Source: Capsulimonas corticalis (GTDB lineage Bacteria; Armatimonadota; Armatimonadia; Armatimonadales; Capsulimonadaceae). From it: 64,000 bases of DNA. Location of the stretch: NCBI RefSeq assembly GCF_003574315.2, contig NZ_AP025739.1, forward strand, positions 6,386,001 to 6,450,000. Reading direction: 5' to 3'. Each line of letters begins with the position of its first letter. Position 1 is the stretch's first letter. The translations under genes and the position numbers were made by a program. The notes under the pieces are model-generated. The model did no database searches and was not told the origin of the DNA. It saw only the letters and a list, made by a program, of their open reading frames with translations. Below are positions 15,580 through 62,413 of this stretch, in pieces.

Positions 15580-16977
15580 TTACGCGTTCGGCGTGATCAT
15601 CGCGACGAGCGGGCCGACCTTGCGGTTGGCCGCGACGGCGTCCGCGTTGCCGATGTCATGCACGATGATATCGACGCGCTCAGTGCCCTTGATGGCAAGC
15701 TGGTCGTTCGCGAAGCGGTACTCGCTCGACGTGGCGATCGTGGTCTCGCGGCGATCGCCAAACAGCGCGGCCAGGCTCAGGTCTCCGAAGAAGACCGGGA
15801 TCTGGTTCTGCGCCGAGGACTGGGGCATCGCCTGGCTGATGCGCACGGGATAGCCCATGAACGTCAGCTCCTTGCGGCCCATCGCCACTTCCATCGCGGT
15901 GACGCCGCCGGCGGCGAGCATCAGTGCTTCCATGACGTCCGAGTAGAACGCCTGGGAGCAGTACCAGGCCGCGTCCTTCTGGAGCGCGTACTGCGGGCAG
16001 AGACCCTTCAGCTTGCCAAAGTCCTTCAGCGTGATGCTGTCCCAGTTATTCGCGTAGCCGGCGCCGCTCGCCACATAGAGGCCGGCGATATTGGCGACGG
16101 TTGCGCTGAGACCCAGGAACTTATTCGTGACGCCCGTGATGCCGCCGTAAGCGCTCGTGGCGTCGCCGACGAAGCCCGCGAAGTCCTCGGTCAGCGCGAA
16201 CGCGTACGCGATCTCGCCGGCCAGGTCGTTCGTAATGTCGATGATCGCGTCTTCGTTCAGCTCGCTCGAATAGAGCGCAAGGCACGCGAGCTTCTTCGCG
16301 ATCAAGGTCACCATGTCCCAGCCTTTTTGGCTCTCGGTGATTCCTTGCCCGTCGGTGACCCAGTACGCCTTCAGGCCGCCGGTGCGGCGCGGAACCATCT
16401 TGGTGTCGCTGCGCATGGTCGACTTCTTCGCATACTTGCGGAAGACGCCGTAGATTTCGCGGAGGACGATCAAATCGTTGTCGAACTCAGCCGGCACCAG
16501 GAAGCCGCCGGCGGCGTTATCGGTCTCGCTCTGGGAGCGAAGCTCGATCCCGTTCTTCGCGCACCACGCCTGGGACTTGGCGTTGTTGCCAAGGGTCGCC
16601 AGCAGGAAGTGGCCCATGCGATACGCCTTGGTCTGCGCCTTCTCCAGATCGTTCGTGATCTTGAGGAAGTTCTCAGGGCGGGAGAGTTTAAACTCCACGG
16701 GGACGATGCCGGTCTTTTCCGCGAAGGTCGGCGCGCTGTTGCCAAGTTCCGGGCGCTGGCCCAGAGTCGCGATCTCGGCTTCCCGCTCGGCGTTCGCCTT
16801 GCGGATATCTTCAATGCTCTTCAAGCGGACGATCTCGGCGTCCAGCGCCTTGATCTCGTCGTTGGCTTTTTCGATAGCGTCCAGGTCCTCGGTGGTCTGC
16901 TCAGCCTTCGCGAACAGGTCTTTGACCTGCTTGACCAGCAGCTCGCGCGCCGCCATCTTCTCTTGCAGTGTTTTCAT
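15580..16977 (-). CDS. HK97-family major capsid protein
   Basis: 465 residues from ATG 16977. Residues 1-75 are a coiled-coil (QEKMAARELLVKQVKDLFAKAEQ to IRKANAEREAEI), typical of the cleaved delta/scaffolding domain of HK97 capsids. The mature shell domain starts near 100; NAAGGFLVPAEFDNDLIVLREIYGVFRKYA is the classic P-loop/E-loop entry and MGYPVRISQAMPQSSA the conserved C-terminal strand. The prohead protease gene lies directly upstream, as expected for proteolytic maturation. Confidence 0.9.
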   Translation of the reverse strand: MKTLQEKMAARELLVKQVKDLFAKAEQTTEDLDAIEKANDEIKALDAEIVRLKSIEDIRKANAEREAEIATLGQRPELGNSAPTFAEKTGIVPVEFKLSRPENFLKITNDLEKAQTKAYRMGHFLLATLGNNAKSQAWCAKNGIELRSQSETDNAAGGFLVPAEFDNDLIVLREIYGVFRKYAKKSTMRSDTKMVPRRTGGLKAYWVTDGQGITESQKGWDMVTLIAKKLACLALYSSELNEDAIIDITNDLAGEIAYAFALTEDFAGFVGDATSAYGGITGVTNKFLGLSATVANIAGLYVASGAGYANNWDSITLKDFGKLKGLCPQYALQKDAAWYCSQAFYSDVMEALMLAAGGVTAMEVAMGRKELTFMGYPVRISQAMPQSSAQNQIPVFFGDLSLAALFGDRRETTIATSSEYRFANDQLAIKGTERVDIIVHDIGNADAVAANRKVGPLVAMITPNA

Positions 16978-17189: not shown

Positions 17190-18629
17190 TTACTCGCCGA
17201 GGACTCCCGCCAGCTCCTGGATCAGGAAATCACGCCGAGCCTTGAGAACGGACGCGGCCGGAGCAAGCTTTTCACTTACTTCAAGTGACTTTTCAGTCGC
17301 CTCTTCCGCGTTGTTCTTTGTCTCCTCCAGCAGATCGTCGATCGCCTTGACGCAGTCCGCCAGCGCGTCGCGGTGCGAGGTGAGCTTCTGCCGGTTGGTT
17401 TCCGACAGCGCCCGCCCTTCCTTGACGCGGATGAGATGGATCGCCTTCGCGCGATCGGAGCAGCTCTTCACGGCAGCACGCACCGTTCCCAGCTGTTTTT
17501 GAAACGATTCCCCGGCATGCAGGGAATCGGACAATTGTTTGACGTCGGGGCCGCCCGCCATCGCTTCGAGTTCGACCTCGACTTCTTCGGCGTCCTGCGC
17601 GCCTTCGACGCCGGACATAATGGCTTCGATCACACGGAGCAGTACGTCCGTGAACTCACCTGCGGCGCCTTCAATGGCGACCAGCGCATCGGCGAGCGGA
17701 GGGCGCACGCGGACATAGTCTCCGGCGACATCGTCCCAGGACCAGTTGCCGCGCAGCTGCGCGGCGACGATGTAGTACATCGTGTAGCACAGATCGTAGG
17801 CGGCGCTCAGCGTCATATCGATCTCGATATCGCCCAGGTACTCGCCCTTCAGCGTCACCTTGCCGTCTTTGGCGATCGCCACCAGTTCGCGCGCTCCGCC
17901 CGGCGCCGGCGCCGATTTCGGGACGAGCACGGTTCCGTCAGGCAGCGTGATCGGCGCGCCGGCGTCGGAGAGCTCCTTGAGCAAGGCCGGCAAGGCGGCA
18001 AGGGTGATCTGTCCGGATTTTTGATTGTCTGATTTCACGTCGACCGCCTCCGCCCAGCGGTTCATGCCGACCGGGACAATGCTATATTCATAAAGCTCGG
18101 GGATATTGATGATGCCCCGGCACGTCGTCTTCCAGGACTTGATCCCATCCGCATCAAAAAGGGACAGGTCGTATCCATTCGCCTCAGCCCAGGTCAGCAG
18201 CGCCTGTCCGGAGGCAAACCATTTGTAATCGCCGGCGTACATGCCAAAGCCGACGGACTCGCCGATCCAAAGTCCCTGCGCCAGGCGCTCCATGCAGATC
18301 GTGCGGGCGTCCTGCGCCTTCTGCGTGGTGTGGAAGACCGCGCGGCTGACGAGCTTGTTGCCGTCCTCCTTCGCGGAAATCGGCATCGCGACGATCTCCG
18401 TCCACTCCCATTTGTGGTCGGTAGGGACGAATCCACGCTTCAGGAAGCTTTCCAGCGCCCCGCTCTTCGTGAACGCGCCCGGGAAGATCACATCCGCGCC
18501 TTCATCCATCACGCCCATGACCGAAGGCACGGAATCGATATAGTTGTCTTCGATGGACGTGTTGGCAGCCTTCAGATTGAAGAATTTGTCAACGCGCGTG
18601 AGATTATTCACGACTGTGATGTCACTCAT
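17190..18629 (-). CDS. Prohead protease with C-terminal helical extension
   Basis: 479 residues. Residues 30-200 match HK97-type serine proteases (S78): FVPTDHKWEW (His72) and PELYEYSIVPVGMNRWA (Ser183) carry the catalytic residues. It cleaves the capsid delta domain and itself during head maturation. Residues about 330-479 are helical coiled-coil (GESFQKQLGTVRAAVKSCSDRAKAI to VKAIDDLLEETKNNAEEATEKS), about twice the usual family length, suggesting a fused internal scaffold. Located between portal and capsid. Confidence 0.85.
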   Translation of the reverse strand: MSDITVVNNLTRVDKFFNLKAANTSIEDNYIDSVPSVMGVMDEGADVIFPGAFTKSGALESFLKRGFVPTDHKWEWTEIVAMPISAKEDGNKLVSRAVFHTTQKAQDARTICMERLAQGLWIGESVGFGMYAGDYKWFASGQALLTWAEANGYDLSLFDADGIKSWKTTCRGIINIPELYEYSIVPVGMNRWAEAVDVKSDNQKSGQITLAALPALLKELSDAGAPITLPDGTVLVPKSAPAPGGARELVAIAKDGKVTLKGEYLGDIEIDMTLSAAYDLCYTMYYIVAAQLRGNWSWDDVAGDYVRVRPPLADALVAIEGAAGEFTDVLLRVIEAIMSGVEGAQDAEEVEVELEAMAGGPDVKQLSDSLHAGESFQKQLGTVRAAVKSCSDRAKAIHLIRVKEGRALSETNRQKLTSHRDALADCVKAIDDLLEETKNNAEEATEKSLEVSEKLAPAASVLKARRDFLIQELAGVLGE

Positions 18630-18680: not shown

Positions 18681-18780
18681 ACGACAGATCTATTCTTACG
18701 ACAGATCTATTCTTACGACAGATCTATTCTTACGACAGATCTATTCTCTCGGCAGATCTACTCTTACGATAGATCTACTT
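18681..18780. repeat. Six tandem 17-bp repeats containing AGATCT
   Basis: Unit ACGACAGATCTATTCTT, copies start at 18681, 18698, 18715, 18732, 18749 and 18766; the last is cut to 15 bases. Copies 1-3 are identical, copy 4 differs only at its last base, copies 5-6 are diverged. The array fills most of the portal-protease spacer and overlaps the portal stop codon (18775-18777). No spacers, so not CRISPR. Function unknown; binding-site array is plausible. Confidence 0.75.
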
Positions 18781-20133
18781 GTCGGCGGCGTCAGGATCGT
18801 CGCTGACGCCCTGGGATCCGTCGGGCGTTGCGGTTTTTGCCGGCATCAACTCGAAATAATATCCGTCAATCTGCTCGTCCTTCTCGTAACCAAGACCGGC
18901 GCGCGCTTCGCTCAGTTTGCCGATACCGTTCTTGAAGTCGCCCCAGAAGCGTTTGTGCTTGGCGTCGAGGTCCGGCTGAAGGTCACGGACTTTGTCGTAG
19001 TTGAACGCGACGACCTCGTCCGGCGCACTCTTTTGCCCGGCGTGAAAATCGGGCAGCAATTCATCCGTGAGTGTCTCCCCGAACACGGAAAGCATCGGGA
19101 TGATGCCGTTTTCGTAGGACGCCTCGCGCGCCTCTTTTTTGTTCGCGTACTTCGTGTTGCCGGAGGGAAGTCCGACCGCCATCGGCTCGATGCCGAGCGT
19201 GGCGAAGATCCGCGACTCCGGACGGTCCCCGATGGTGTCGAGCGCCATTTCCTGCGGGGTGGATCCTATGCGATCGGCGCGTACGGGAATCGAGGGCATG
19301 ACCAGGCCGCCCCGGTTGTCCGCCGAAATACCTACCCGGACCTTGTCTTTCAGCTCGTCGACCGTATCCGTGTCCATCTCGGCGTCGTCGCCGACGGGGG
19401 AGATCATGATCGCGACGCCGAGGTTTTTCAGGATCGACGCGGTGAACGTCGCGATCTCGTTGTCGGAGACGACTTCGCGGAACTCAGCGCGGAAGGGGGC
19501 GTAGCCCTTCCGGTTGTTCTCCAGATCGAGACCGTTCTTGAAGTGGATGACGTTGGCGCGCGCATAGACTTCCGTCTTACCATTTGGGAGCGTGCGCTTG
19601 TAGAACTCGGTCGGCCCGTTCCCGAGCGGCGCCAGAGGCTCCATCTGCCAGTGCGCGATATACCAGAGCTGCTGAACGGACCCGTACCCACCGGACCCGC
19701 GCACCTTGACGATATAGGCGTTTCCGTCCAGCTTATAGGACGCAGCGCAGGCCTGGAGCATCGCGCGCCAGCTGTATTCGCCGTTGGGCCTGCGAAGCAG
19801 CTGAATCAGTGCGTGCCCGGGGATCGGCGTGGGCGTTCCGTCGGGATCCGAGACGACTTGAAGGCGCGGCTCCGCGACCTTGTTGAAGATATATTGGATT
19901 CCGATCGAGATCGCCGGGTTTTCCCAGAGCGGTCCCGCCTCGTTTTGCCAGTTGCGGACGCTGCCCCGGTAATACTGATGATTGCGCCCGGAGAGCACAC
20001 TCCATCCGGCGTCGCCTTCGGCCGTCACGCCGCCATCCTTAATGGACAGGACCGCGTTCAAACCCCGACGGATCTGCTGGCGGAGGCCCGGCAGCTTCCC
20101 GGTATTTAGTTTTCCGGCCTTGAAGACTGCCAT
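18775..20133 (-). CDS. Portal protein (HK97 family)
   Basis: 452 residues. NPAISIGIQYIFNKVAEPRLQV at the start, the PNGEYSWRAMLQACAASYKLDGNAYIVKVR block, and VIHFKNGLDLENNRKGYAPF are typical of HK97 portals. The C-terminal region (LQPDLDAKHKRFWGDFKNGI) is the helical barrel. It forms the dodecameric DNA entry ring and docks the terminase. Order terminase-portal-protease-capsid is canonical. Confidence 0.9.
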   Translation of the reverse strand: MAVFKAGKLNTGKLPGLRQQIRRGLNAVLSIKDGGVTAEGDAGWSVLSGRNHQYYRGSVRNWQNEAGPLWENPAISIGIQYIFNKVAEPRLQVVSDPDGTPTPIPGHALIQLLRRPNGEYSWRAMLQACAASYKLDGNAYIVKVRGSGGYGSVQQLWYIAHWQMEPLAPLGNGPTEFYKRTLPNGKTEVYARANVIHFKNGLDLENNRKGYAPFRAEFREVVSDNEIATFTASILKNLGVAIMISPVGDDAEMDTDTVDELKDKVRVGISADNRGGLVMPSIPVRADRIGSTPQEMALDTIGDRPESRIFATLGIEPMAVGLPSGNTKYANKKEAREASYENGIIPMLSVFGETLTDELLPDFHAGQKSAPDEVVAFNYDKVRDLQPDLDAKHKRFWGDFKNGIGKLSEARAGLGYEKDEQIDGYYFELMPAKTATPDGSQGVSDDPDAADK

Positions 20134-20289: not shown

Positions 20290-21864
20290 CTACATCAACT
20301 TGAAAACGCGTTTCTTTTTGCTCATGCGCCGGAGCGCCTGCGTGAGTGCGTCTACATCGTCGTCTTTGGCGGCGTTTGGGAATGCTGTCAGCCGGTCGAG
20401 GGTTACCTTGATCCATGGATAAAGCGCAGGGTGCGGAAGATACACATTTCCGGACTCGCACATCGGAGTGACGGCATGAGCGCGGGAGACTTTATCACCT
20501 TCGGGTTCGATAGGGATGAGCCCCGGGATCTCTTTTTTCAGCGAGGAAATTACCGCAGGTCCGTTTGCCTTATCCTCAACGAGTTTCGCGAGCGCCAGCG
20601 GCCACTTCTCCGTCATCGCGCGAACGGCCGCGATCGTGGCCGTGAAATCCATGCGTTCACAAACTTGATCGAGCAGGAAGCAATCGGCTTTGACCTGAGC
20701 CCAGACCTGCCCGGCGACGAAGTCCGCGCCCTTGCTGTCTTTGAACGACATATCCCAGGACTGGAGGAGTGTTTCAAATCCCTCAGGGATCTCGATGACG
20801 GGGCTGTCAAAGAATGAGCCGTCCTCCAGGACAATGGTAATCGGCGGGAGTTTGCCGAGCAGACCTTTGGGAACCCAGTAGCGCCACCAATGGCTTTTGA
20901 AGATGATGCCGGCGGCGGGTCGCGGCGACTGCTGATGCTGCCCGGCAAAATCCGTTTCGCCCAGATCCTTTTTCAGCTGACTGAGTACTTGCTTCGTGAA
21001 CATCTCCGGGAACAAGAGATCCCCATGCTCAGTCCGCGGATCTGACCAGAATTCAGTGCGCATTTCGTCTTCGCCATCATTAAGATCATTATCCTTGGAG
21101 AAGATGAATGTACGCGAACGGCGCTCCGGCTCAAATTCCGACGGCAGGCAAAGATGCTCGAAGCCGCCCTTCGCAAGTATATGTCCGGACAGATCTTCTT
21201 CATGCAAACGCTGCATGATCACGACGCGCTTGCCGCCACGCGGATCATTGATCCGCGTGGGCATCACTTTGTCCCACCAGAAGATGCACTCGTCGCGGGT
21301 CGCCTTCGAATGCATTTCCTTGGCGTTCAAAGGGTCGTCGACCACGATCTTGTTTCCGCGAAAACCAGTAGCGCGGCCGCCGACGGACATCGAAAACCGA
21401 AAACCGGTCTTATCGTTCTGAAACCAGGACTTAACGTTCTGGTCGCCCTTCATTTTCCAGTCCGGCTCGAACCACTCCTGGTACCAGTCGGAAGTGATCA
21501 GGTCTCGGCAACGAACGCTATCACGGATTGCAAGATCCACGGCGTAGGACGAGAATAGAGAGCGTTCGCGCGGATTTTGGATCCATTCCCATGCCGGCCA
21601 GAAGACACTAACTAGGAGCGACTTCATATGCCCGGGTGGGATATTAATGAGCAGGTCACGGATGTGACCTAAAGTCACCGCCTCCAGATGATCACAGATA
21701 CAGTCCACATGCCAGTTGTTGATCAGCGGCATTCCCGGCTCAATGATGTGCCATGAATGCTGAACAAAGTCACGCAGATGCGCGCGGCATGCGGCTATAT
21801 CACGCCGACGTCGCTCCGCTCGGATTTGTGCCGGTGTCCAGATCTCCAGAGCCGGCTTCGGCAT
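20290..21864 (-). CDS. terL: Terminase large subunit
   Basis: 524 residues from ATG 21864. N-terminal packaging ATPase: Walker A-like PPGHMKS at 76-82, Walker B IVVDDP at 173-178. C-terminal RNase H-type nuclease: LQSWDMSF supplies the first Asp, DKANG and the acidic cluster DDDVDAL the others. It cuts concatemers and pumps DNA into proheads via the portal. The first 65 bases overlap the small-subunit gene. Belongs to the Terminase_6-like type. Confidence 0.9.
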   Translation of the reverse strand: MPKPALEIWTPAQIRAERRRRDIAACRAHLRDFVQHSWHIIEPGMPLINNWHVDCICDHLEAVTLGHIRDLLINIPPGHMKSLLVSVFWPAWEWIQNPRERSLFSSYAVDLAIRDSVRCRDLITSDWYQEWFEPDWKMKGDQNVKSWFQNDKTGFRFSMSVGGRATGFRGNKIVVDDPLNAKEMHSKATRDECIFWWDKVMPTRINDPRGGKRVVIMQRLHEEDLSGHILAKGGFEHLCLPSEFEPERRSRTFIFSKDNDLNDGEDEMRTEFWSDPRTEHGDLLFPEMFTKQVLSQLKKDLGETDFAGQHQQSPRPAAGIIFKSHWWRYWVPKGLLGKLPPITIVLEDGSFFDSPVIEIPEGFETLLQSWDMSFKDSKGADFVAGQVWAQVKADCFLLDQVCERMDFTATIAAVRAMTEKWPLALAKLVEDKANGPAVISSLKKEIPGLIPIEPEGDKVSRAHAVTPMCESGNVYLPHPALYPWIKVTLDRLTAFPNAAKDDDVDALTQALRRMSKKKRVFKLM

Positions 21865-25437: not shown

Positions 25438-25514
25438 TGGGGCCCGCGGGCCGCTGTGAGCAACCATCTTCCCGATGACAAATCGGGCGCTCTACTATAT
25501 TGAGCTACGCAGGC
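25438..25514 (-). tRNA. tRNA-Asp (GTC)
   Basis: 77 nt including an encoded CCA. All four arms fold: acceptor GCCTGCG with CGCGGGC (one G-U), D-arm GCTC/GAGC, anticodon stem CCCGA/TCGGG with loop TTTGTCA (anticodon GTC), 5-nt variable region, T-stem with two G-U pairs. The T-loop CTCACAG departs from the usual TTCRANY, so function may be altered. Confidence 0.8.
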
Positions 25515-25586
25515 ATAAATGATTCCGGTTACCAGGAACGGCCCGCGAAGTCCGTCACTCCGGATTGCACTTTTCATGCAAGGCGC

Positions 25587-25665
25587 TGGTCCGAGGGGAA
25601 GGATTTGAACCCCCGACCTCACGGTTTTCAAGGCCGTGCGCTCTACCAGGCTGAGCTACCCAAGG
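25587..25665 (-). tRNA. tRNA-like gene, anticodon TGA (Ser) with short variable arm
   Basis: 79 nt including encoded CCA. D-arm GCTC/GAGC and T-arm GGGGG-TTCAAAT-CCTTC are normal. The anticodon arm is CACGG...CCGTG with either a 9-nt loop or a sixth C-A pair and the 7-nt loop CTTGAAA (anticodon TGA). Acceptor CCTTGGG with CCCTCGG has two mismatches. A serine tRNA should have a long variable arm; this one has about 5 nt, so identity is uncertain and it may be degenerate. Confidence 0.6.
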
Positions 25666-49878: not shown

Positions 49879-49959
49879 ATTATAACATATTGTATTGGGG
49901 ATAGCAATATGTTTTAAAACAATTTGTCGCTTTATTTTTGCAACAAATTGTTTTATACT
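49879..49959. promoter_or_regulatory. Divergent lysogeny promoters and operators
   Basis: Minus: TTGCTA (49907-49902), 17 bases, TATAAT (49884-49879) for the Cro-like gene. Plus: TATACT (49954-49959) for the repressor, no clear -35. Operators: ACATATTGT (49885), ACAATTTGT (49919), ACAAATTGT (49943). Two opposed promoters with shared operators are the classic genetic switch layout. Confidence 0.7.
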
Positions 49960-49984
49960 GTGTCTATCTCCATTAGGAGACAAA

Positions 49985-50470
49985 ATGATAGCCTGTTTAG
50001 AAATTGAGATTGACTTTATGAGCAAGGAAAACGCAAGCACGTTCAGCCTATGGTTGGCCGAGCAGCGTCGCCAATACCCTGAAAAGTTATCCCAAGATGA
50101 TTTGGCCGATATGGCTAATATCACCCAAGGCTACGCATCTGCCCTGGAACGAGGCGCTCGGGCGCCTTCAAAAAAAGTTGTCGAAAAACTCGCTAGGGCG
50201 CTGGCCCCGCCCGGCTCAGATGTAGATTTTGTTCAGGCCCTTATAGCTTCCGGTTTAGATGCTGCTGGCTTTAAAGTTGAACAGCGAATAATTACCCGAA
50301 AGCGTGACGCTGAACTCGATCATCTCTTCGAACAGCTTAGTGGACGCCAAGACAAAATTCCGCTGGCGAAGAATGTCCTCAGGGCAATCTTGGAAAGCGA
50401 TTCAGATACGGCAATCGGACACCGCTCAAAATTCGATGATGACTTTGAGGACGGTACGGAGGGTGAGTAA
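49985..50470 (+). CDS. XRE-family phage repressor
   Basis: 161 residues from ATG 49985, AGGAGA upstream. FSLWLAEQRRQYPEKLSQDDLADMANITQGYASALERGARAPSKKVVEKLARAL is an N-terminal XRE helix-turn-helix. The C-terminus is short and acidic; no LexA-like protease domain, so induction probably needs the ImmA-like protease next door. Divergent from Cro. Confidence 0.8.
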   Translation: MIACLEIEIDFMSKENASTFSLWLAEQRRQYPEKLSQDDLADMANITQGYASALERGARAPSKKVVEKLARALAPPGSDVDFVQALIASGLDAAGFKVEQRIITRKRDAELDHLFEQLSGRQDKIPLAKNVLRAILESDSDTAIGHRSKFDDDFEDGTEGE

Positions 50471-51943: not shown

Positions 51944-53050
51944 ATGGCATGGGAACCTTACGTAGAATTCGCAAATTTCATTTGTAAGTTTGGCGAAGAC
52001 ACCAATCTTCTTGATCTCGCTAACGATGTCGTCCTGCCAGCCCTACTTTCGCATCCTGAAAAATATGAGTTCATGTCGAGCACATATTTTCTCTATGAAA
52101 CCCGATTAGAGATGTTGCCCTTTGACGGCCGCGATGAACTGTGTTTGGTCGGCACTTTTATCCAAGACACGAGGCATCGGAGCGTACAAGTCTTTGACCC
52201 TGAGCTTGGATTGGTGGAAAGCCTTAGTGAAACTCCTTATGCGACCTCCGCTTCCTTTGTCCTGATATTAAGGAACCATAAGCTTCTCTACTACCATGAG
52301 ACCCCCGAGGCGCCTCCTCTTGGATCCTTCAAGAACGTCGTAACCCGAAACATTCGACGGTATTACAAGCAGTATGTTGATGATCGGATAGCCGAAGCTG
52401 CCGCTGAGGTACAATCTAGAAAGAATCCTACCAAGACCGCAATCAACGCGGCCAAGAGCGCTACGCGCCGAACGTATGGCCGATTCACCCTGGAAATTAT
52501 CTCTCTCTCAAGTGAAGATGACTTCAGGGCCTACATTCAGCAGATGTCCCGGCTCGTTTCCGTTCGAATTGAACTGGTGGACACAAATGATGAAAACGAC
52601 AATGATCCGTTCTTTGACGATGTCCGGGAGAAGAAAGAAGCAATAGGATCGGACAGGACGGCTTTGTCTCACGAAAACACCGAAGGTCTGAATCGTGAGG
52701 AGGCAATCAACCAGTTGAGCGCGGCGACAGCCCAAGGTAATTCACATATCTCGGTGGTCGGTTTTGACGAAGCGGGGGTTGAGATTCGTGGGGGCGCGAC
52801 GGATTACAAGACCCGAATCACATTGCCGCTCGAAAGCCGCGAAAATAGAGATGGCGGCAGTCCGGACGTGGAAGGAAATGTTATTTCCCGAACCGAAAAC
52901 GCCGGAATCTTAATGCGGCGAATGCTTTCCGCATTCGGAGCCTTCGTGAGGCGTGGAGTTCACATTGATGAGACCCCTGAAGCAGACGCACAAATCATTG
53001 AATCCAAAATTGCGGCTGTCCAAGAACAATTCAACATCGGAGCCGGGTAA
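51944..53050 (+). CDS. Unknown soluble protein of a two-gene cargo operon
   Basis: 368 residues, no known motif. N-terminus 1-145 alpha/beta (YVEFANFICKFGEDTNLLDLANDVVLPALLSHPEKYEF; a strand TFIQDTRHRSVQVFDP), then a basic helix (RKNPTKTAINAAKSATRRTYG), a second domain (200-280) and a C-terminal beta part with VVGFDEAGVEIRGGATDYKTRITLP. No membrane span. Its gene overlaps that of a four-span membrane protein by 83 bases. Sensor-effector defence function is a hypothesis. Confidence 0.6.
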   Translation: MAWEPYVEFANFICKFGEDTNLLDLANDVVLPALLSHPEKYEFMSSTYFLYETRLEMLPFDGRDELCLVGTFIQDTRHRSVQVFDPELGLVESLSETPYATSASFVLILRNHKLLYYHETPEAPPLGSFKNVVTRNIRRYYKQYVDDRIAEAAAEVQSRKNPTKTAINAAKSATRRTYGRFTLEIISLSSEDDFRAYIQQMSRLVSVRIELVDTNDENDNDPFFDDVREKKEAIGSDRTALSHENTEGLNREEAINQLSAATAQGNSHISVVGFDEAGVEIRGGATDYKTRITLPLESRENRDGGSPDVEGNVISRTENAGILMRRMLSAFGAFVRRGVHIDETPEADAQIIESKIAAVQEQFNIGAG

Positions 53051-53675
53051 AGATAGACCGTTCAACCCTGCCAGCCTGACAGAAGAAAAAGATCTGTGGG
53101 ACATTTGGGTTCAGATACGGCATATCAAGGAAAGCAAGTTCAATGTTTCATCGACTTGGCTAATTGTCTTCTTGAACGTTTTATATGCCGTATATACCCC
53201 TGAGTCCACTCACGTTCTGGCGGATAAGGTCCGAAGCTGGTCAGATCTTGGGCTGAACTTTGGAGCGTCACTGCTTGGTTTCCTCATAGCTGGATTTACG
53301 ATCTTCGCTACTCTGGTAAAGCCTGAGCTTTTCCTACAGATGGCGCAGCACATTGACAAGAAAACGGGTCTCAGTTATTTGAAGGGTTCCTTCTTCAGGT
53401 TTATTAAGATCTTTACCGTGATCTTGTTCTTTATATTCACCTGTTATCTGGTAAAGGCATTTGCTCTTCCATCTGGCCTACTCTCAATTTTCGTCAATCG
53501 CGTATTGATAGACCCTGGAGAATGCAAGCGGTATTTGGCTCAGATCGGGATAGTGTTTGTATCATCCGTGTTTTTTTATATGGTGGTGTTGGTTCAGTCC
53601 TTCATCTTCAACGTGTATCATTCCATAATGACGTCACTGCGATGGGAAGCTGAATATCCGACACCTCCAAAATAA
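52968..53675 (+). CDS. Four-span membrane protein, partner of the 51944 gene
   Basis: 235 residues from ATG 52968, GGAG upstream (a GTG at 52953 is possible). Spans: WLIVFLNVLYAVY, GASLLGFLIAGFTIFATLV, IFTVILFFIFTCYLVKAFAL, IGIVFVSSVFFYMVVLVQSFIF. Cytoplasmic N-terminus. Overlap with the upstream gene indicates coupled synthesis. Such soluble-plus-membrane pairs often act in phage exclusion; untested here. Confidence 0.6.
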   Translation: MRPLKQTHKSLNPKLRLSKNNSTSEPGKDRPFNPASLTEEKDLWDIWVQIRHIKESKFNVSSTWLIVFLNVLYAVYTPESTHVLADKVRSWSDLGLNFGASLLGFLIAGFTIFATLVKPELFLQMAQHIDKKTGLSYLKGSFFRFIKIFTVILFFIFTCYLVKAFALPSGLLSIFVNRVLIDPGECKRYLAQIGIVFVSSVFFYMVVLVQSFIFNVYHSIMTSLRWEAEYPTPPK

Positions 53676-53764: not shown

Positions 53765-55342
53765 ATGACCACGAGGAAACAAGTCCACCTTTCCTTCACC
53801 CCGCTTCGGTACTGCATTTACCGCCGCGTCAGCAAAGAAAGCCAGGTCGAGCGCGATCTCTCCCTTCCCGAGCAGGAAGCGCAGCAGATCGCCTATGTCG
53901 CGGCGCGCGGCGGCGTGGTCACGCACAACTTCCAGGACGGAGGTATCAGCGCCTGGGGAGAGAAGGGCGATCAGCGCGCCGAGTTCCAAAAGGCGATCAC
54001 CTGCGCCAAGGCCGGCGAGTACGATGTCTTTCTAATCCATAAATCCGATCGCGTTTTTCGGTACCGTACGCACGCTGTTACATACAAGCATCTCCTCAAG
54101 CAATATGGCGTGAAGGTGGAAAGCGTCACCGAGCCATGGGTGGGCGGGGACGATCCCTCCGAGAAGCTGATCGAAGGCGTTATGGAGTGCGTCTCGGAAT
54201 TTCACAGCGATAATCTTTCGACGGAACTCAAAAAGGGAATCCACAGCGCGGCCGCCAATAAAGGTCGCCAGCACGGTCCGCCCGTCTATGGTTACCGTTA
54301 TGCCGAGCCCGGCGTGCGCGGCGCCGGCTGGGCGCTCGACGATGAGGCCGCGCGCTGGGTCAAATGGATATTCGAGACGTACGTCGGACAGCGCGCCATG
54401 CTCGTCGATCTCGCCCGGCAGCTGAACGCCATGAAGATCCGTCCACCCGGCACGAACGGCGCGCGCCGCAACGTTTACCTCGACGGCTGGCAGGCGCAAA
54501 CGATCTCCCACATGCTCCGAAACATCGTCTATACCGGCCAGTGTAAATTGAATGGCGATGTCTTTCCCGGCGCCCATCCGGCCATCATCACCGCCGAGAC
54601 CTTCGCCCAGGCCCAAATCCTCGTAGAGGCCCGCCGCCCTGGGAAGATCTCGGAGATTGACGCCATGTTCGCCGGCGGTCTCCTGCTCTGCCCGCACTGC
54701 GTCGAAGCAGGACGCAAGAGCGTCCTGCACACCCATATCCGCAGTCCAAAAACGGGCAAGCGCGAAGCCTGCTACGTCTGCTCCGTTCGCATGGGAATGT
54801 ACCGCGCGAAGGGATCCGGACTTGCCCCATCGCAGGAGTGTCCGGGTTTCAACATCATGGAGGGTAAGATTAGGCGAATGGTTATTGAAAGCCTGGAACG
54901 GATCCGGAACGAGGGCGGGATCGTGGAACTGCTCGCCGAGCATCCACATCTCGCCGAACGCCTCCTGGAGCCGCCGCCGCTTGAGGCGCCGTCCCCGCAC
55001 CCCGACCCGCAAATCATACGCAAAGAGCTTGACCTGATCCCAACACGCATCATGGCCCTCTCCGATCAGAACCAGCGCGGCTACATTACGCTCGATCAGA
55101 TGGGAAACGCCATCGCCGAAATCGAGCGCACGAAGACACTGCTGCTGGAGCAGCTCGCGATCGCCGAGACCGCGCGTCCACTGAAGCTCCTGAAGCCTTT
55201 CGACGCCCATCGCCTGCTCGTGATGATCCAGAGCAATCAGCACACCACCGAGGAAAAGCGCGCATTCCTTCAGGATTGGCTTGCTGGGATCCTGGTTTCC
55301 GCTGACAAAAAGTTGGTGGATTTCCGCATTCCTCAGCTGTAG
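53765..55342 (+). CDS. Large serine integrase
   Basis: 525 residues. Resolvase domain 16-150 with catalytic Ser23 (YRRVSKES) and KSDRVFRYR; recombinase domain from about 165 (HGPPVYGYRYAEPG); zinc ribbon (LLCPHC...CYVCSV) and a C-terminal coiled coil (NAIAEIERTKTLLLEQLAIAET) as in phage serine integrases. No Shine-Dalgarno. Adjacent to the truncated phage B capsid gene, matching the att site position. Confidence 0.9.
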   Translation: MTTRKQVHLSFTPLRYCIYRRVSKESQVERDLSLPEQEAQQIAYVAARGGVVTHNFQDGGISAWGEKGDQRAEFQKAITCAKAGEYDVFLIHKSDRVFRYRTHAVTYKHLLKQYGVKVESVTEPWVGGDDPSEKLIEGVMECVSEFHSDNLSTELKKGIHSAAANKGRQHGPPVYGYRYAEPGVRGAGWALDDEAARWVKWIFETYVGQRAMLVDLARQLNAMKIRPPGTNGARRNVYLDGWQAQTISHMLRNIVYTGQCKLNGDVFPGAHPAIITAETFAQAQILVEARRPGKISEIDAMFAGGLLLCPHCVEAGRKSVLHTHIRSPKTGKREACYVCSVRMGMYRAKGSGLAPSQECPGFNIMEGKIRRMVIESLERIRNEGGIVELLAEHPHLAERLLEPPPLEAPSPHPDPQIIRKELDLIPTRIMALSDQNQRGYITLDQMGNAIAEIERTKTLLLEQLAIAETARPLKLLKPFDAHRLLVMIQSNQHTTEEKRAFLQDWLAGILVSADKKLVDFRIPQL

Positions 55343-55353
55343 TGCGAAAAATA

Positions 55354-55878
55354 TTAACTCCCTCGACGCCACCTGAAATCCCCAGCTTGAACAGCTAAAA
55401 TCACCACTCCGCGCCGCGACCAATCAACTTGATGTATTCGGTAATGCACATTGGTGCCGGTGCTCATGAAATCACGCGCGAGCTGATCGATCGTTTGTCC
55501 GGCCTGGAAGCCGAGGATATCGGCCGCCTGAGTCAGAATGGGATCGATCGCCGACCACGTCAGCACGTCCGAGACCTGAATAAAGTCTCCGTACTGCGCG
55601 ATGCCTACCGTCACCGGCGTTACCGTCAAGTTGTTGCCCGTCGGCGTAACGCCTTCGGAGAGCGGCGAAGTCGCGGGACTCAGCAGCTCAAAACGCCGCA
55701 TCTGCATGGTCGTTCCGGCGTTCTTGTCAATCGGCCGATCGTCCGCAAACTGCGCGTGGATCAAATTTGGGCGCGCCGCCTTGAGAAGCCGCCGATCATA
55801 CGCGATCCGCACTTCCGCCGGCAAGCTGCCGCCCGCGCCGGGAGTTGTCCCCGGTCCAAATACATGTGTCGTCGCCAT
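55354..55878 (-). pseudogene. Truncated N4gp56-type major capsid gene (phage B)
   Basis: 174 codons. RIAYDRRLLKAARPNLIHAQFADDRPIDKNAGTTMQMRRFELLSPATSPLSEGVTPTGNNLTVTPVTVGIAQYGDFIQVSDVLTW is a strong match to N4gp56 capsid proteins (usually 300 residues or more). Family sequence ends at TGTNVHY and is replaced by about 30 unrelated codons. The remainder is presumably beyond prophage A's other end. Confidence 0.8.
55415..55450. other. Probable attachment site (attR) junction
   Basis: On the minus strand the phage B capsid frame reads on-family to STGTNVHY (55460-55435), then changes to an unrelated tail that stops at 55354. The integrase stop is 93 bases away. Serine integrases act on short sites next to their gene, so the crossover is expected here. 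The other junction is left of the window. Confidence 0.6.
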
Positions 55879-55943
55879 GGCTAGTTACAGTCCTTACTGT
55901 GTCATAAAAGAAGCGCCCGGCCCCACTGGCCGCACGCTGAAAA

Positions 55944-56090
55944 GCCCTCACCCGGCCCTTCGCCAACTCTCTTTATTCGGGGAGAGGGTTAAGATGAGAT
56001 CAAGATTTGGATCTGTGATCCAAAAGACCTTATCACTCCCTCTGACTCCCCCTCTCCCAAAATAGGGAGAGGGGGCAGGGGGGTGAGGGC
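55944..56090. repeat. REP/MITE-like element
   Basis: Ends in inverted repeats GCCCTCACCC (55944-55953) and GGGTGAGGGC (56081-56090), with an internal CCCTCTCCC/GGGAGAGGG hairpin. 147 bp long, directly after the scaffold gene stop. A related piece lies at 58485-58531. A dispersed host repeat is likely. Confidence 0.6.
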
Positions 56091-56094
56091 CGAT

Positions 56095-56877
56095 CTACCG
56101 ATATGTTTGCAGCGTCTTACGCAGCTCTTGTTCGTACCATTTGTCGAAGTCGGGGGAGTTGATCTCCGGCACGCCGCCCCGGCGCGGGGCGTTTTTGCCG
56201 CCGCCGCCCTCGGGAGCGCCGCGCCTTCGGTCCCCTTCCTTCTGGTTGTGATAGTCCGCGATCACCCGCTCACGGTAAGCCGTCCGCTGCTCGTGCGACT
56301 CTCGCGCGAGGTCCGCGACCGGCCGGCCCGTTGCGGCGGCCATCGCCCGCACATAATCCGTGTCCGCCTCGGGGTAGCGGCGGCTCACGGCGGCGAGGTC
56401 TTGCTCGCGCATCCACCCCGCCAGCTGCTCGCGCTCCCGCTGCAGCGCGCGATGCTCCAGCTCCGCCCGCAGACGCTGACTTGCGACCTGCGGATCCAGC
56501 AGGCCCTGGTCGACCTGCTGCTGATACGCGGCCGCCACTTGCGTTTGTTCGGCCTCCAGGGCGCGCTGCTCCAACGCCTCCTGCACAGCCTCGGGACTAT
56601 CATATCCTTCAGCGCGAAGCGCCTCCAGGATCGGCGACCACCGGTTGAGCTCCTGATAGCGCTCATTGACCTGATGGAACCGCTCGTACGGCACCGGCCC
56701 CCGCGCTTCATCCTCGTCGGCATCCTCATTTAACGCCTGATCGATGTCGTCATCTTCCGAAAGAGCGGCGACCTCTTCCGAATCCTCGGGTGAAGCGTAC
56801 CAGTCCGCAATCTCCATGCCGTCCGCGGGCGACGCGTCGGCTCCGTCGTTTAACGCCCCTTCATTAAAATCATCCAT
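56095..56877 (-). CDS. Head scaffolding protein (phage B)
   Basis: 260 residues, acidic N-terminus (EVAALSEDDDIDQALNEDADEDEARGPVPYERFHQVNERYQEL) then Gln/Glu/Arg-rich coiled coil and a basic C-terminus with FDKWYEQELRKTLQTYR. Typical scaffold layout, located before the N4gp56 capsid gene. Confidence 0.7.
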   Translation of the reverse strand: MDDFNEGALNDGADASPADGMEIADWYASPEDSEEVAALSEDDDIDQALNEDADEDEARGPVPYERFHQVNERYQELNRWSPILEALRAEGYDSPEAVQEALEQRALEAEQTQVAAAYQQQVDQGLLDPQVASQRLRAELEHRALQREREQLAGWMREQDLAAVSRRYPEADTDYVRAMAAATGRPVADLARESHEQRTAYRERVIADYHNQKEGDRRRGAPEGGGGKNAPRRGGVPEINSPDFDKWYEQELRKTLQTYR

Positions 56878-57878: not shown

Positions 57879-60057
57879 TTAATCCGACACCCCCGGTATC
57901 GTCTGTGACGGCCCCCCATTCGCTTCCGCCGAATGCTCCGCGCGCCACTTCTCGATCTCCAACTGAGCCTTGTGCGTCTCCAGATCCATCGCGTGCTGAT
58001 GGTCGATCGCCTTGAGCTGCGCCTCGTGCTCCATCTGGGTGCGCGCCGCCGTCTCCTCCTGCTGATGCTGGATCGCCGCGAGCTCTGCCGCATGTTGCTG
58101 CTGGGCCTGCGCCATCTCAGCCGCATGCTGCTGCTGCATTGCCGCCGCTTGCTCGGGATCGGGCTGCGACGCCTTCGCGATCGCCAGCGCATCCATCCGC
58201 GCCTGGAGCATCGTCTCGTAGACCGTGTCCGGATTCGTGTACTCCAGCTCTTCCAGCAGGATCTTCGCCGCCGTCGGGTCTCCCGAACGAACGCGCCTGC
58301 ATCACCGGCGCCAGCCATCCGTCCGCCGGCGGAGGCGGAGGCGAAGACGCCAAAGGCGCGCCTCCGTTCCCCGCCCCCATCGCTCGCCCCAGGGAATCGG
58401 GAGAAGCAAGCCCATTCGGCAGCGAGCCACCCCCACCCGCCCCGATCGCCTGCTCCCCCACTGGGGGCCGAGGAGCATCCAAATCCTCTCCCAGAATTGG
58501 GAGAGGGTGGCGCTTCAGCGCCGGATGAGGCCCAGCCCCCGTCCCTTCCGAAACCCAAACCAGTCTCGGCTCTTTGTAAAACTGCGCCGCCAGCGCAATC
58601 TCCCACTCCGCGCGCCTCTGATGCCACGTTTCGATATTCTCGATAAAGTCCGCCATCTGCGTCGTATCCGATTCCAGCAGTTGCTGAATCGCCGACGCCG
58701 CCGTCACCCCGGCCGGCACCCCGCCTTCGGAGACTTCATGCACTCCAGAGATATCGTTCATATCCCCCTCGTCCATCTGAAGCATTTGCAGTAGAAACGG
58801 AGGCAGCGGCGGCGCGGGGATATGCTGTGGCGGCACGCTGCCCTGCTTGTAATAGATCACCTCGCCCGGCGCGGCGCTGTCGAAGGCGTCCACCCCAATC
58901 TCGCTGCCCTCCTGGGCGAGGATCTTTCCCCAGGCCGTCTTGCGATGCTCGATCGTCCGCGAAATCCCTTCATTGTACGACCGCTGGGCCGAGATCAAAT
59001 CGGAGACGGCGTTAAGCCCATACACCGTGCTTTGCCCATCTTCAAACGATAATGGGACAAACGGGAAATCATCCTTCTTAGCGTACGGCCATGGATCATC
59101 GCGCAGCACGCGTCCGCCGGCCACCGTAATCAATCGCCCTTCAGGAAAGCGCAGCGTAGGCTTCTCCCACAGCTCCTTCACCAGCACGCTCTTCTGCGAC
59201 TGCCCCGGCTCCGAGCCGCGCCCATATTCCCCGACCACCGACGCCAGTCGGCTCTCGACATATCCGCCAACTCCGCCGCCGGCGTCGCCCTCAATGTCCA
59301 GAGCCCTGTCCCCATACTTCGCCCGCAGCTCTTCCAGCGATCGGACTTTCGCGTGGATCAGCCACGCCACGTCCTCCCACTCACGCGCCTTCGGATCCAG
59401 ATAGATCTCGAAGATCGGCGCGATGTCCTCGCAGATATCGCCGATCGCCGCCGTGGACGATCCCACGATCGCCCCGGCCGCATCGAATTTTGGAACTTCC
59501 GCGCGCCGGTCCGGGTCCCAGTAAATCTTCAAAAACGCCGTCGATGTCGTCAGCGCGAACCGCGCCAATCTCTTCACCTGATGGGGACGCCGCCAGATAT
59601 TGTCCAGATGCTCGATCAGCGCCCGCGCCTCAGCCGCCGCCGCTCGGTCCAGATCCGACGCCGTGAGCGGCGCCACCCCCGCGTCCGGCGACGCGCTCAG
59701 TCCCCGCGCCAGCAGCTTCTTGATCTTCGGCCGGATCTTATTGCGCACGGCGTAGACCTGATGCGGGCGCCGAGGATCGCGCATCGACCGCAGTATTCCA
59801 TGCGCATTCGACCAGCTCACCCATTGGTTGCCCAGATAAAACGCCAGGCTCTCAAACCACGCCGGCTCATGGATTCGACGATTATCCGCCGCGCTGTTAT
59901 ATCTCTCGTCCACCAGCCGCGCCAGCGCAATCTCATCTTCCCCGGGCATCGTCGGCGTCCGAATCACATCGTCCGCCGACAATTCGCTATCCACGTTCGA
60001 CGGGTCCCGCAGCGTCACCGTCGCCCGCGCCTTCTTCTTCGGAATTTGCTCAGCCAT
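57879..60057 (-). pseudogene. Frameshifted portal gene (phage B)
   Basis: Frame 1 (60057 to 58117) encodes a portal of the podovirus-like type (ERYNSAADNRRIHEPAWFESLAFYLGNQWVSW, SFEDGQSTVYGLNAVSDLISAQRSYNEGISRTIEHRK). The natural C-terminus (SGDPTAAKILLEELEYTNPDTVYETMLQARMDALAI and Gln-rich coiled coil) is in another frame ending at 57879. The switch is near 58290-58310. A REP-like insertion at 58485 lies just before it. So the gene is probably dead. Confidence 0.7.
58485..58531. repeat. REP-like element inside the portal gene
   Basis: CCTCTCCCAGAATTGGGAGAGG hairpin then TGGCGCTTCAGCGCCGGATGAGG (each given in part; two inverted repeats), related to the 55944 element. It adds residues such as HPALKRHPLPILGE not expected in a portal. 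Confidence 0.6.
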
Positions 60058-60369: not shown

Positions 60370-61980
60370 CTACCACTCATCCTCACTCTCCATCAGCGCA
60401 TGCGGCAGCCGCTTCGGGTCGATCACCTTCACACCCCGATACTTCAGCACACGCTCCTCGTCCGAATCCGGCCGCTTTGCCCGCGCGGGTCTCGAAAGCA
60501 ATCCGTATCTCAAGGAGTCGGCACCGTGATCCTCCGCCGTCGTATCCAGATCTTCCAAGTCCCTCGGATCCGGCCCCAGTGTCCCAATCGTCCGAATCAG
60601 ATTCGGACAGCGGCCTTGGAACACTGTCAGCGCGCCCGGTTCGTGCAGATATTCGCGCACCCGCGCCCAGCCGTTCACGCGGTCGTTATTGGCCCGGATG
60701 ACATTGAGACCTTCACTCCAATACTCCTCGGCGATATATTTGCCCGGATGCCCCGCCCGCGCCTTCGCCTCTTGCGGCGGGAAGATCGATGGGTCCGCAT
60801 AGATCGGGCATGACTTTGGCGCGATCCCATAGCGCTCCAAAACCTGCGCGACTTTCACCGCCTGCTCCCCCGGCGTCAGACGGGTTTCATACACCTCATC
60901 CATCACCGTCACATTGCCGGCGTCGTCACTCGCCATCAAAAGAAAGCAAAACGGAGCGGCCTTGCCATAATCCAATCCTCCAAAAAAGCGATACCACGTG
61001 GGAATCTCCACCGAGAGCCGCACATGCTTCGCCTCCGACCACTCGGAGAAGTACGCGCCTTCTTGAACATCCCAGTCGCCGCGCAGCAATCGCGCCTGCT
61101 CGACTTCCGGAAGCGACTTCAAATTCACCAGATAGTGCGGATCGATCTCTAAGAGAAGCTTGTTGTCGTAAACACTGGAGAAGATAAACGTGACGGACTT
61201 TCCAGGCAGCCCTTCCTCATCACGCCAGTTTTCGTCCACCCAAACGATCTCGCCATTCACCCGAGTAAACCAGCGCAGCTCTCCATGCGCCGCCCGGTCC
61301 AGACGGTTCTTATCCAGCCACGGCGCCAGAAACTTCTTCACCCACGAGCCCGCCTTCGGATTCGTCGTCGCCCGCACATAAGGCCGCACGCCGCTTGTTG
61401 ATCGATTGCGCGACAGCAAATAGAAGAACTGGTCTTCCGTGAAGTGCGTCAGCTCATCAAAACAAATGAGCGGAATCTCCGTCCCCTGCCAGTCATGGAC
61501 AGTATCCGCGCGCTGCAAATGAGCCATTTTTCCTTTTGCCCCGCTCGGAAACTTCCAGCTCAAAGTCGTCAAGTTCGGCTTCGCGCCAGTCCTTGGAAAA
61601 AGCTTTAGCGACGCATCCCACAAGCCCCCATTCGCCGTAATCGGCGGCGACGTGCGACGAAAAATCACGAAGTTAAAGTAAGGATTATTCCGATGACGCA
61701 GACACTCCAGCAGCAGCCCAAAGGTCTTGCCGCCGCCCGCCGCCCCGCCAAAAATCACGATATCCGCGCGACTGTTGTAAAAATCCGTCTGCGGCCCCGG
61801 CTGCGGTGGAGGAAGTCCCACTGGCGCCCGATCCCGCTCCCGCCGCAACGCTTTTGACGCGGGGCTTTCACTCTTTGACGCCGTCCTTCCGCCGCTAGAC
61901 GCGCTGGGGCTGGATGTCGATCGCTCCCCATCGGCGTTCCACAAAGTCAAGGAGTTTGGTGCGCGTGTCATCGTCGTCAA
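60370..61980 (-). CDS. terL: Terminase large subunit (phage B)
   Basis: 536 residues. Walker A GGAAGGGKT (78-86), Walker B LICFDE (171-176), nuclease GGLDYGKAAPF and CPIYADPS. The family differs from prophage A's terL. First 50 residues low-complexity. Overlaps the small subunit by 86 bases. Confidence 0.9.
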   Translation of the reverse strand: MTTMTRAPNSLTLWNADGERSTSSPSASSGGRTASKSESPASKALRRERDRAPVGLPPPQPGPQTDFYNSRADIVIFGGAAGGGKTFGLLLECLRHRNNPYFNFVIFRRTSPPITANGGLWDASLKLFPRTGAKPNLTTLSWKFPSGAKGKMAHLQRADTVHDWQGTEIPLICFDELTHFTEDQFFYLLSRNRSTSGVRPYVRATTNPKAGSWVKKFLAPWLDKNRLDRAAHGELRWFTRVNGEIVWVDENWRDEEGLPGKSVTFIFSSVYDNKLLLEIDPHYLVNLKSLPEVEQARLLRGDWDVQEGAYFSEWSEAKHVRLSVEIPTWYRFFGGLDYGKAAPFCFLLMASDDAGNVTVMDEVYETRLTPGEQAVKVAQVLERYGIAPKSCPIYADPSIFPPQEAKARAGHPGKYIAEEYWSEGLNVIRANNDRVNGWARVREYLHEPGALTVFQGRCPNLIRTIGTLGPDPRDLEDLDTTAEDHGADSLRYGLLSRPARAKRPDSDEERVLKYRGVKVIDPKRLPHALMESEDEW

Positions 61981-62413
61981 TCGTCTCCTGCGCGGCCTGC
62001 ACCAGCGCCGCGCCCATCTGTCCCATCACCGCGTCCAGCGCCGCCAGCCCGATCGCGCCCGCGCTCTTCTGCTTCTCGATCCTCAGCGCGAGCGTCCCCA
62101 CCTGCGCCAGCAGCGATCCCGCCGCCGCCACATCCAAAATCTTCACCGGTTTCGCCGGCCGCTCCGGGTTCCCGAACGATTCATGCCACGCGATCAGCGC
62201 CGCCGAAAACCGGTCATAGCGCTCCACATAATCCGTCAGCAGCGCCCGCAGCAACGCCAGCTCCGGCAGCAGATCCAGCGGCTCCAAATCCCCCGCATGC
62301 CTGGCCGCAAGCTCCTTCAGCCTCTCGCTTTGCAGCGCGCGATATCTGCCGCCGCTGCTGGGACGCTTACGCGCCGCCCCGCCGTCTTTCTTGCCCGGAG
62401 CACTATCCGTCAT
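61895..62413 (-). CDS. terS: Probable terminase small subunit (phage B)
   Basis: 172 residues from ATG 62413 (ATG 62428 possible). A Lys/Arg-rich start (GKKDGGAARKRPSSGGRYRAL) likely binds DNA; helices follow (LLPELALLRALLTDYVERYDRFS, SLLAQVGTLALRIEKQKSAGA). Position and overlap with terL support the call. Confidence 0.6.
   Translation of the reverse strand: MTDSAPGKKDGGAARKRPSSGGRYRALQSERLKELAARHAGDLEPLDLLPELALLRALLTDYVERYDRFSAALIAWHESFGNPERPAKPVKILDVAAAGSLLAQVGTLALRIEKQKSAGAIGLAALDAVMGQMGAALVQAAQETIDDDDTRTKLLDFVERRWGAIDIQPQRV

Follow-up and report, generated by a model that had tools for sequence, protein, structure and literature searches.

We found that prophage A, a 99.8-kb temperate phage in the genome of Capsulimonas corticalis, has very probably integrated site-specifically into the capsid gene of an unrelated resident prophage, here called element B, with a large serine integrase as the putative catalyst. 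The window that we analysed was a stretch of 64,000 nucleotides (bases 6386001-6450000 of one 7,645,051-base contig); positions outside it are given as genome positions. The integration into a resident capsid gene, which had been proposed in the initial annotation of this DNA, is borne out by the two halves of the gene, the 8-bp core that they have in common, the reading frame that is restored when they are joined, and a relative in which the gene is uninterrupted, together with a dyad-symmetric attP beside the integrase gene. Judged by the uniqueness of the attP arm, by shuffles of the dyad and by the open joined frame, the pattern lies well above chance.

A capsid gene in two halves

The N4-gp56 capsid family (TIGR04387) was represented in the whole genome by two pieces, each scoring above the curated cut-off of 60 bits. 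The right piece covered positions 5-134 of the 324 positions of the model at window 55438-55827 (minus strand; 124.4 bits), and the left piece covered positions 113-303 at genome 6341218-6341721 (minus strand). The left match contained two stops and extended beyond the core into prophage A; its B-side portion was open. The reading frame of the right piece, including its fused tail, spans 55354-55878 on the minus strand. The initial annotation had noticed that it keeps family sequence to TGTNVHY (about 55435) and then becomes unrelated. Family sequence stops at ...STGTNV, inside the 8-bp core, and the later residues are prophage A DNA that is read through. The missing C-terminal half, which had been expected beside the left end of A, was found there, 99.8 kb to the left (core-to-core distance 99,782 bp). 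Joined over the common ACCAATGT, the two halves form a single open frame of 303 aa, ...DFMSTGTNV/IYANGKTARNLV..., with the junction at the slash. Since both halves are open and in frame, the capsid gene was apparently undecayed at the time of cutting. The attP of prophage A brings no replacement sequence for the interrupted capsid.

The viral contig IMGVR_UViG_3300045253_000067 (L010) carries a capsid gene without the insertion, which aligned to the rejoined capsid at 61% identity and without gaps over residues 1-296, across the junction. The same contig also matched B upstream of the insertion, in the portal and weakly in the scaffold, and downstream of it, in g13, g12, g11 and g9. Thus, the right part of B (in the window) and its left part (100 kb off) correspond to one late cluster in a relative that lacks A. 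The initial annotation had asked whether the fused capsid tail also occurs in phages without the integrase; L010 and the homologues in phages matched the rejoined capsid and not this tail. The order of the B genes upstream of the insertion (terminase, portal, scaffold position), earlier described as normal, is also the annotated order in Bacillus phage Pony. The earlier remark that no tail genes follow the capsid holds within the window but not overall, as the remainder of the capsid and the downstream genes of B lie past the left end of A.

Table 1. Features of prophage A, element B and their junctions. Positions are those of the window unless marked as genome positions.
Feature	Position	Strand	Evidence or remark
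Major head protein, A	15580..16977	-	phrog_10 E 3.6e-51; unrelated to the capsid family of B
Head maturation protease, A	17190..18629	-	phrog_3244 E 1.1e-6, weak match
Portal, A	18775..20133	-	phrog_2662 E 3.9e-33
Large terminase, A	20290..21732	-	phrog_38 E 2.5e-95
Repressor-like helix-turn-helix gene, A	49895..50470	+	PF01381 E 4e-11; near integrase
Large serine integrase, A (525 aa)	53765..55342	+	Pfam Resolvase and Recombinase; phrog_95 integrase E 1.5e-69
Tyrosine recombinase, left end of A	genome 6341746-6342801		PF00589 and integrase PHROG matches; 72 bp inside attL
Fused tail of truncated capsid frame	55354..55447	-	prophage A DNA read through to stop
attP arm in attR	55429..55444	+	inverted partner at genome 6341677-6341692 (outside window)
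8-bp crossover core of attR	55448..55455	.	ACATTGGT on plus strand; direct repeat in attL, genome 6341666-6341673 (outside window)
N-terminal part, N4-gp56 capsid gene of B	55448..55878	-	TIGR04387 over cut-off; joined 303-aa frame
C-terminal part, N4-gp56 capsid gene of B	genome 6341185-6341665 (outside window)	-	TIGR04387 over cut-off
Palindromic repeat copy in B, between scaffold and capsid genes	55930..56085	+	genome-wide repeat family
Scaffold-like gene, B	56095..56877	-	by position, no family match; weak similarity to the L010 gene in the same place
Portal (P22-like), B	58117..60057	-	PF16510 E 2.2e-28
Large terminase, B	60370..61980	-	PF03237 E 5.2e-22; phrog_979 E 1.9e-82
Small terminase, B	61895..62413	-	position only, no family match

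Attachment sites and proposed integration

On the capsid sense strand, attR reads ...GAGCACCGGC-ACCAATGT-GCATTACCGAATACATCAAG and attL reads GTTGATGTATTCGGTAAAGT-ACCAATGT-CATCTATGCG. The 16-bp attP arm was present at exactly two places in the 7.65-Mb genome (with at most one mismatch), in inverted orientation and at the two ends of A. When these ends were joined, the AA of the core was the exact centre of a dyad with 20 out of 25 pairs, a value that 0 of 2000 shuffles attained; for the arm positions, 17 out of 20 paired, which was attained by 1 of 200,000 random pairs. The dyad reached about 23 bp to each side of the centre. This attP is about 50 bp long, adjoins the integrase gene and has inverted arms around a short crossover core, as do those of large serine integrases. 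The imperfect dyad that goes with an attB of this class was not seen in the predicted attB, which had no dyad symmetry (3 out of 20 arm positions) and whose arms matched the attP arms at 5 to 7 of 20 positions. For want of both the symmetry and the likeness to the attP arms, the capsid site may be a secondary attB.

We propose that the large serine integrase of A brought attP together with a target site within the coding sequence of the B capsid. Strand exchange would have taken place at the AA centred in ACC-AA-TGT, which makes up the first two bases of the Asn codon in a GTNVxYA motif. The capsid gene is split as a result, and no intact B capsid protein would be made while A is integrated; excision of A is predicted from the sequence to restore the frame exactly.

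Element B

Element B covers about 33.8 kb and comprises 27 genes predicted with a homemade gene caller, 26 of them on the minus strand. The gene run leads from the terminase to tail-type structural genes, followed by a holin-like gene (weak) and an endolysin. The portal frame matched L010 up to about residue 512, and from there the C-terminal sequence of L010 continued in another frame (57924-58283; tblastx). A partial copy of a palindromic repeat lies in the portal gene beside this frame shift (window ~58477-58541), and a second full copy in B lies at genome 6330469-6330619. The repeat family was located at 47 places among the matches listed genome-wide (40 of the 126 first-look candidates were scored). 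Within a 203-kb stretch that comprises A and the host flanks, the two copies of B and the partial portal copy were the only ones. Dating the insertion of A from the absence of the repeat in A was considered and judged too weak.

The marks of a functional prophage, namely its own integrase, a repressor and att repeats, were not found in B. There was no tyrosine integrase gene (PF00589 match), and for serine recombinases and repressors the gene calls and the scans of part of the B genes yielded none. Flanking direct repeats were not convincing: the longest (18 bp) resembled chance, and on this ground we rejected the view that B is a prophage whose ends can be recognised. We also rejected B as a conserved gene-transfer cluster, as TIGR04387 was above the cut-off in just 4 out of the 291 genomes of the phylum, this genome included, and the cluster is thus not conserved. 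Because no integrase was found and the reading frame of the portal changes next to a genome-wide repeat, B is probably a cryptic, decaying prophage; it was probably cryptic already when A arrived, or is so now. The insertion likely has little effect on B at present, and with B in decay it is doubtful that A now gains from silencing it. The earlier suggestion of a disabled rival is therefore retained in part: A interrupts the capsid gene and its attP holds no replacement, but the supposed rival has no integrase or att repeats that we could find and a frame-shifted portal.

Conservation of the target and search for a second case

We compared the crossover codon in 14 capsid loci, nine of them hand-picked from 83 phage records and five added to these (L010, L011, L012, L013, L021), excluding the weak loci L014-L020. 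An Asn was present in 10 out of the 14. This fits a conserved target without proving that one is used; capsid genes of the N4-gp56 family might be a regular target, but the searches that follow gave no second case.

The search with the serine integrase against the 291 phylum genomes recovered only itself and one 38% homologue (in G022). The gene after this homologue was recognised by eye as secA, so that the homologue does not lie in a capsid gene. No relatives of the integrase were found in viral contigs, and the 177 records recovered from the phage collection were all below 60% identity. The best 80 of the 175 integrase-relative loci in genome contigs contained no stretch resembling the capsid of B and none of the eight structural genes of A and B that were tested. 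The exact attP and attB patterns had 0 matches in viral contigs.

These results bear on another explanation, according to which A did integrate here, but the capsid site is an accidental secondary attB, B was by then a dead prophage remnant, and neither phage is affected. We regard it as evenly balanced. The lack of dyad symmetry in attB points towards it, and so do the condition of B (no integrase or att repeats found, a shifted portal frame, inserted genome-wide repeats) and the failure to find a second case among the phylum genomes, the viral contigs and the best 80 of 175 integrase loci, whereas the capsid halves that are still open and in frame, and the crossover codon kept in 10 of the 14 loci compared, argue the other way. 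We consider it unlikely that the serine integrase of A normally attaches at the conserved codon motif of N4-gp56 capsid genes, so that lysogeny would silence such phages and excision would reactivate them.

Choice of recombinase

The initial annotation had recognised a large serine integrase ending at 55342, and the gene at this place indeed carries both domains of the class, PF00239 (resolvase catalytic) and PF07508 (recombinase). It is present in a single copy in the genome, and its stop codon is 105 bp from the attR core. The tyrosine recombinase gene that adjoins attL, with its PF00589 and integrase PHROG matches, could have carried out the integration instead, in which case the 8-bp core would be its overlap region; a short identity block is likewise described for satellite integrases in PMC10111431 (10 bp for 11capE). 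We find this quite unlikely, given that the arms of attB and attP agree at so few positions and that the attP dyad is so long. Core sites of tyrosine recombinases normally have inverted arms common to attP and attB, and a dyad of some 23 bp on each side of the centre is a property of serine-integrase attP sites. By these general site properties, the long attP dyad and an attB unlike attP favour the serine integrase, and A most likely integrated into the capsid gene of B through this enzyme. That the arrangement arose by misassembly or by chromosomal rearrangement, and not by phage integration, is highly improbable: although it was found in one genome only, its ends coincide with an 8-bp core at the middle of a dyad beside an integrase gene, and the frame is restored to the base.

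Gene content of prophage A

We predicted 107 genes in prophage A with the same gene caller, and 92 out of the 107 were on the minus strand, which is that of the capsid gene. Prophage A has head and packaging genes of its own, with matches to terminase, portal, protease (weak) and major head protein families (Table 1). By gene content it is an independent temperate phage and not a satellite, and it looks complete. The terminase had 95 relatives in viral contigs, so that A belongs to a common phage type, judged by this gene; the head protein had no relative among the viral contigs searched.

Comparison with known nested elements

Helper-embedded PICI (HE-PICI), described in PMC10111431, are satellites such as the 11-kb 11capE that lie in prophage late genes, most often in the capsid gene; the genomes of Gram-negative PICI measure 10-20 kb, and many of the helper prophages of HE-PICI look truncated. 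A resembles them as a mobile element in a prophage capsid gene, with a short identity block (8 bp for A versus 10 bp there), an attP without replacement sequence and most genes (92/107) co-oriented with the interrupted late gene. A differs from them in size (99,782 bp core to core), in having its own head and packaging gene matches where HE-PICI rely on a helper (B is not known as a helper of A), and in having a serine integrase at the site and a host in another phylum, where HE-PICI have one integrase clade and enterobacterial hosts.

In E. coli, prophages inside prophages use attB sites of chromosomal origin at effector-gene loci (PMC8112680). The case of A is similar in that a whole prophage lies within another and the recipient carries the att site; unlike in the E. 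coli type, the site of A is inside a capsid coding frame and is part of the phage gene, with no origin in a host locus. Pneumococcal prophages also carry attB sites (PMC8637289), and PMC10654092 and PMC8092301 showed no nested prophage case for the terms searched.

In the open-access literature searched, we found no case of a serine integrase placing a full phage in the capsid gene of a prophage. The present case differs from those known in combining a full phage, a capsid coding sequence as target and, probably, a serine integrase as catalyst. The skin element in sigK and the comK prophages interrupt a host gene, and their regulated excision restores its frame. The capsid gene of B is similarly split by a site-specific element and its frame would be restored by the predicted excision, but the target of A is a prophage gene and not a host gene. 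The integrations into prophage late genes described so far are those of small satellites that depend on a helper, in enterobacteria; that of a full phage into a capsid gene in Armatimonadota, probably with a serine integrase, would extend them to a wider range of elements and recombinases. As the capsid frame appears to be exactly restorable, the fate of the recipient on induction is directly testable.

Other genes of the two elements

Two genes separate the repressor-like gene of A from its integrase, one for a 368-aa protein (window 51944-53050) and, overlapping it, one for a membrane-like protein (52953-53675). Their placement is reminiscent of superinfection-exclusion pairs; neither gene had a Pfam, PADLOC or PHROG match, and the idea finds no support there. 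Genes for tRNA-Thr (tgt) and tRNA-Ser (tga) were found in A at window 25438-25665. In the part of A to the left of the window, a gene matching a phage DNA polymerase family (L004:2729-4129) adjoins a DnaE-type polymerase III alpha gene (L004:4224-7415), and the pair recalls bacterial ImuB-DnaE2 mutagenesis cassettes.

The end of the late cluster of B, to the left of the window (L003, L022), encodes a 1022-aa protein at genome 6322460-6325528 whose C-terminal part weakly matched Colicin-DNase, at a score under the cut-off. The next gene, at genome 6321906-6322451, is of the SMI1/KNR4 immunity family. Further on, there is a 1572-aa protein whose start resembles that of the 1022-aa protein. Finally, we identified a glycosyltransferase family 87 gene in B (L003:13055-14230, plus strand); it is the only predicted gene of B on its strand and is apparently inserted cargo.
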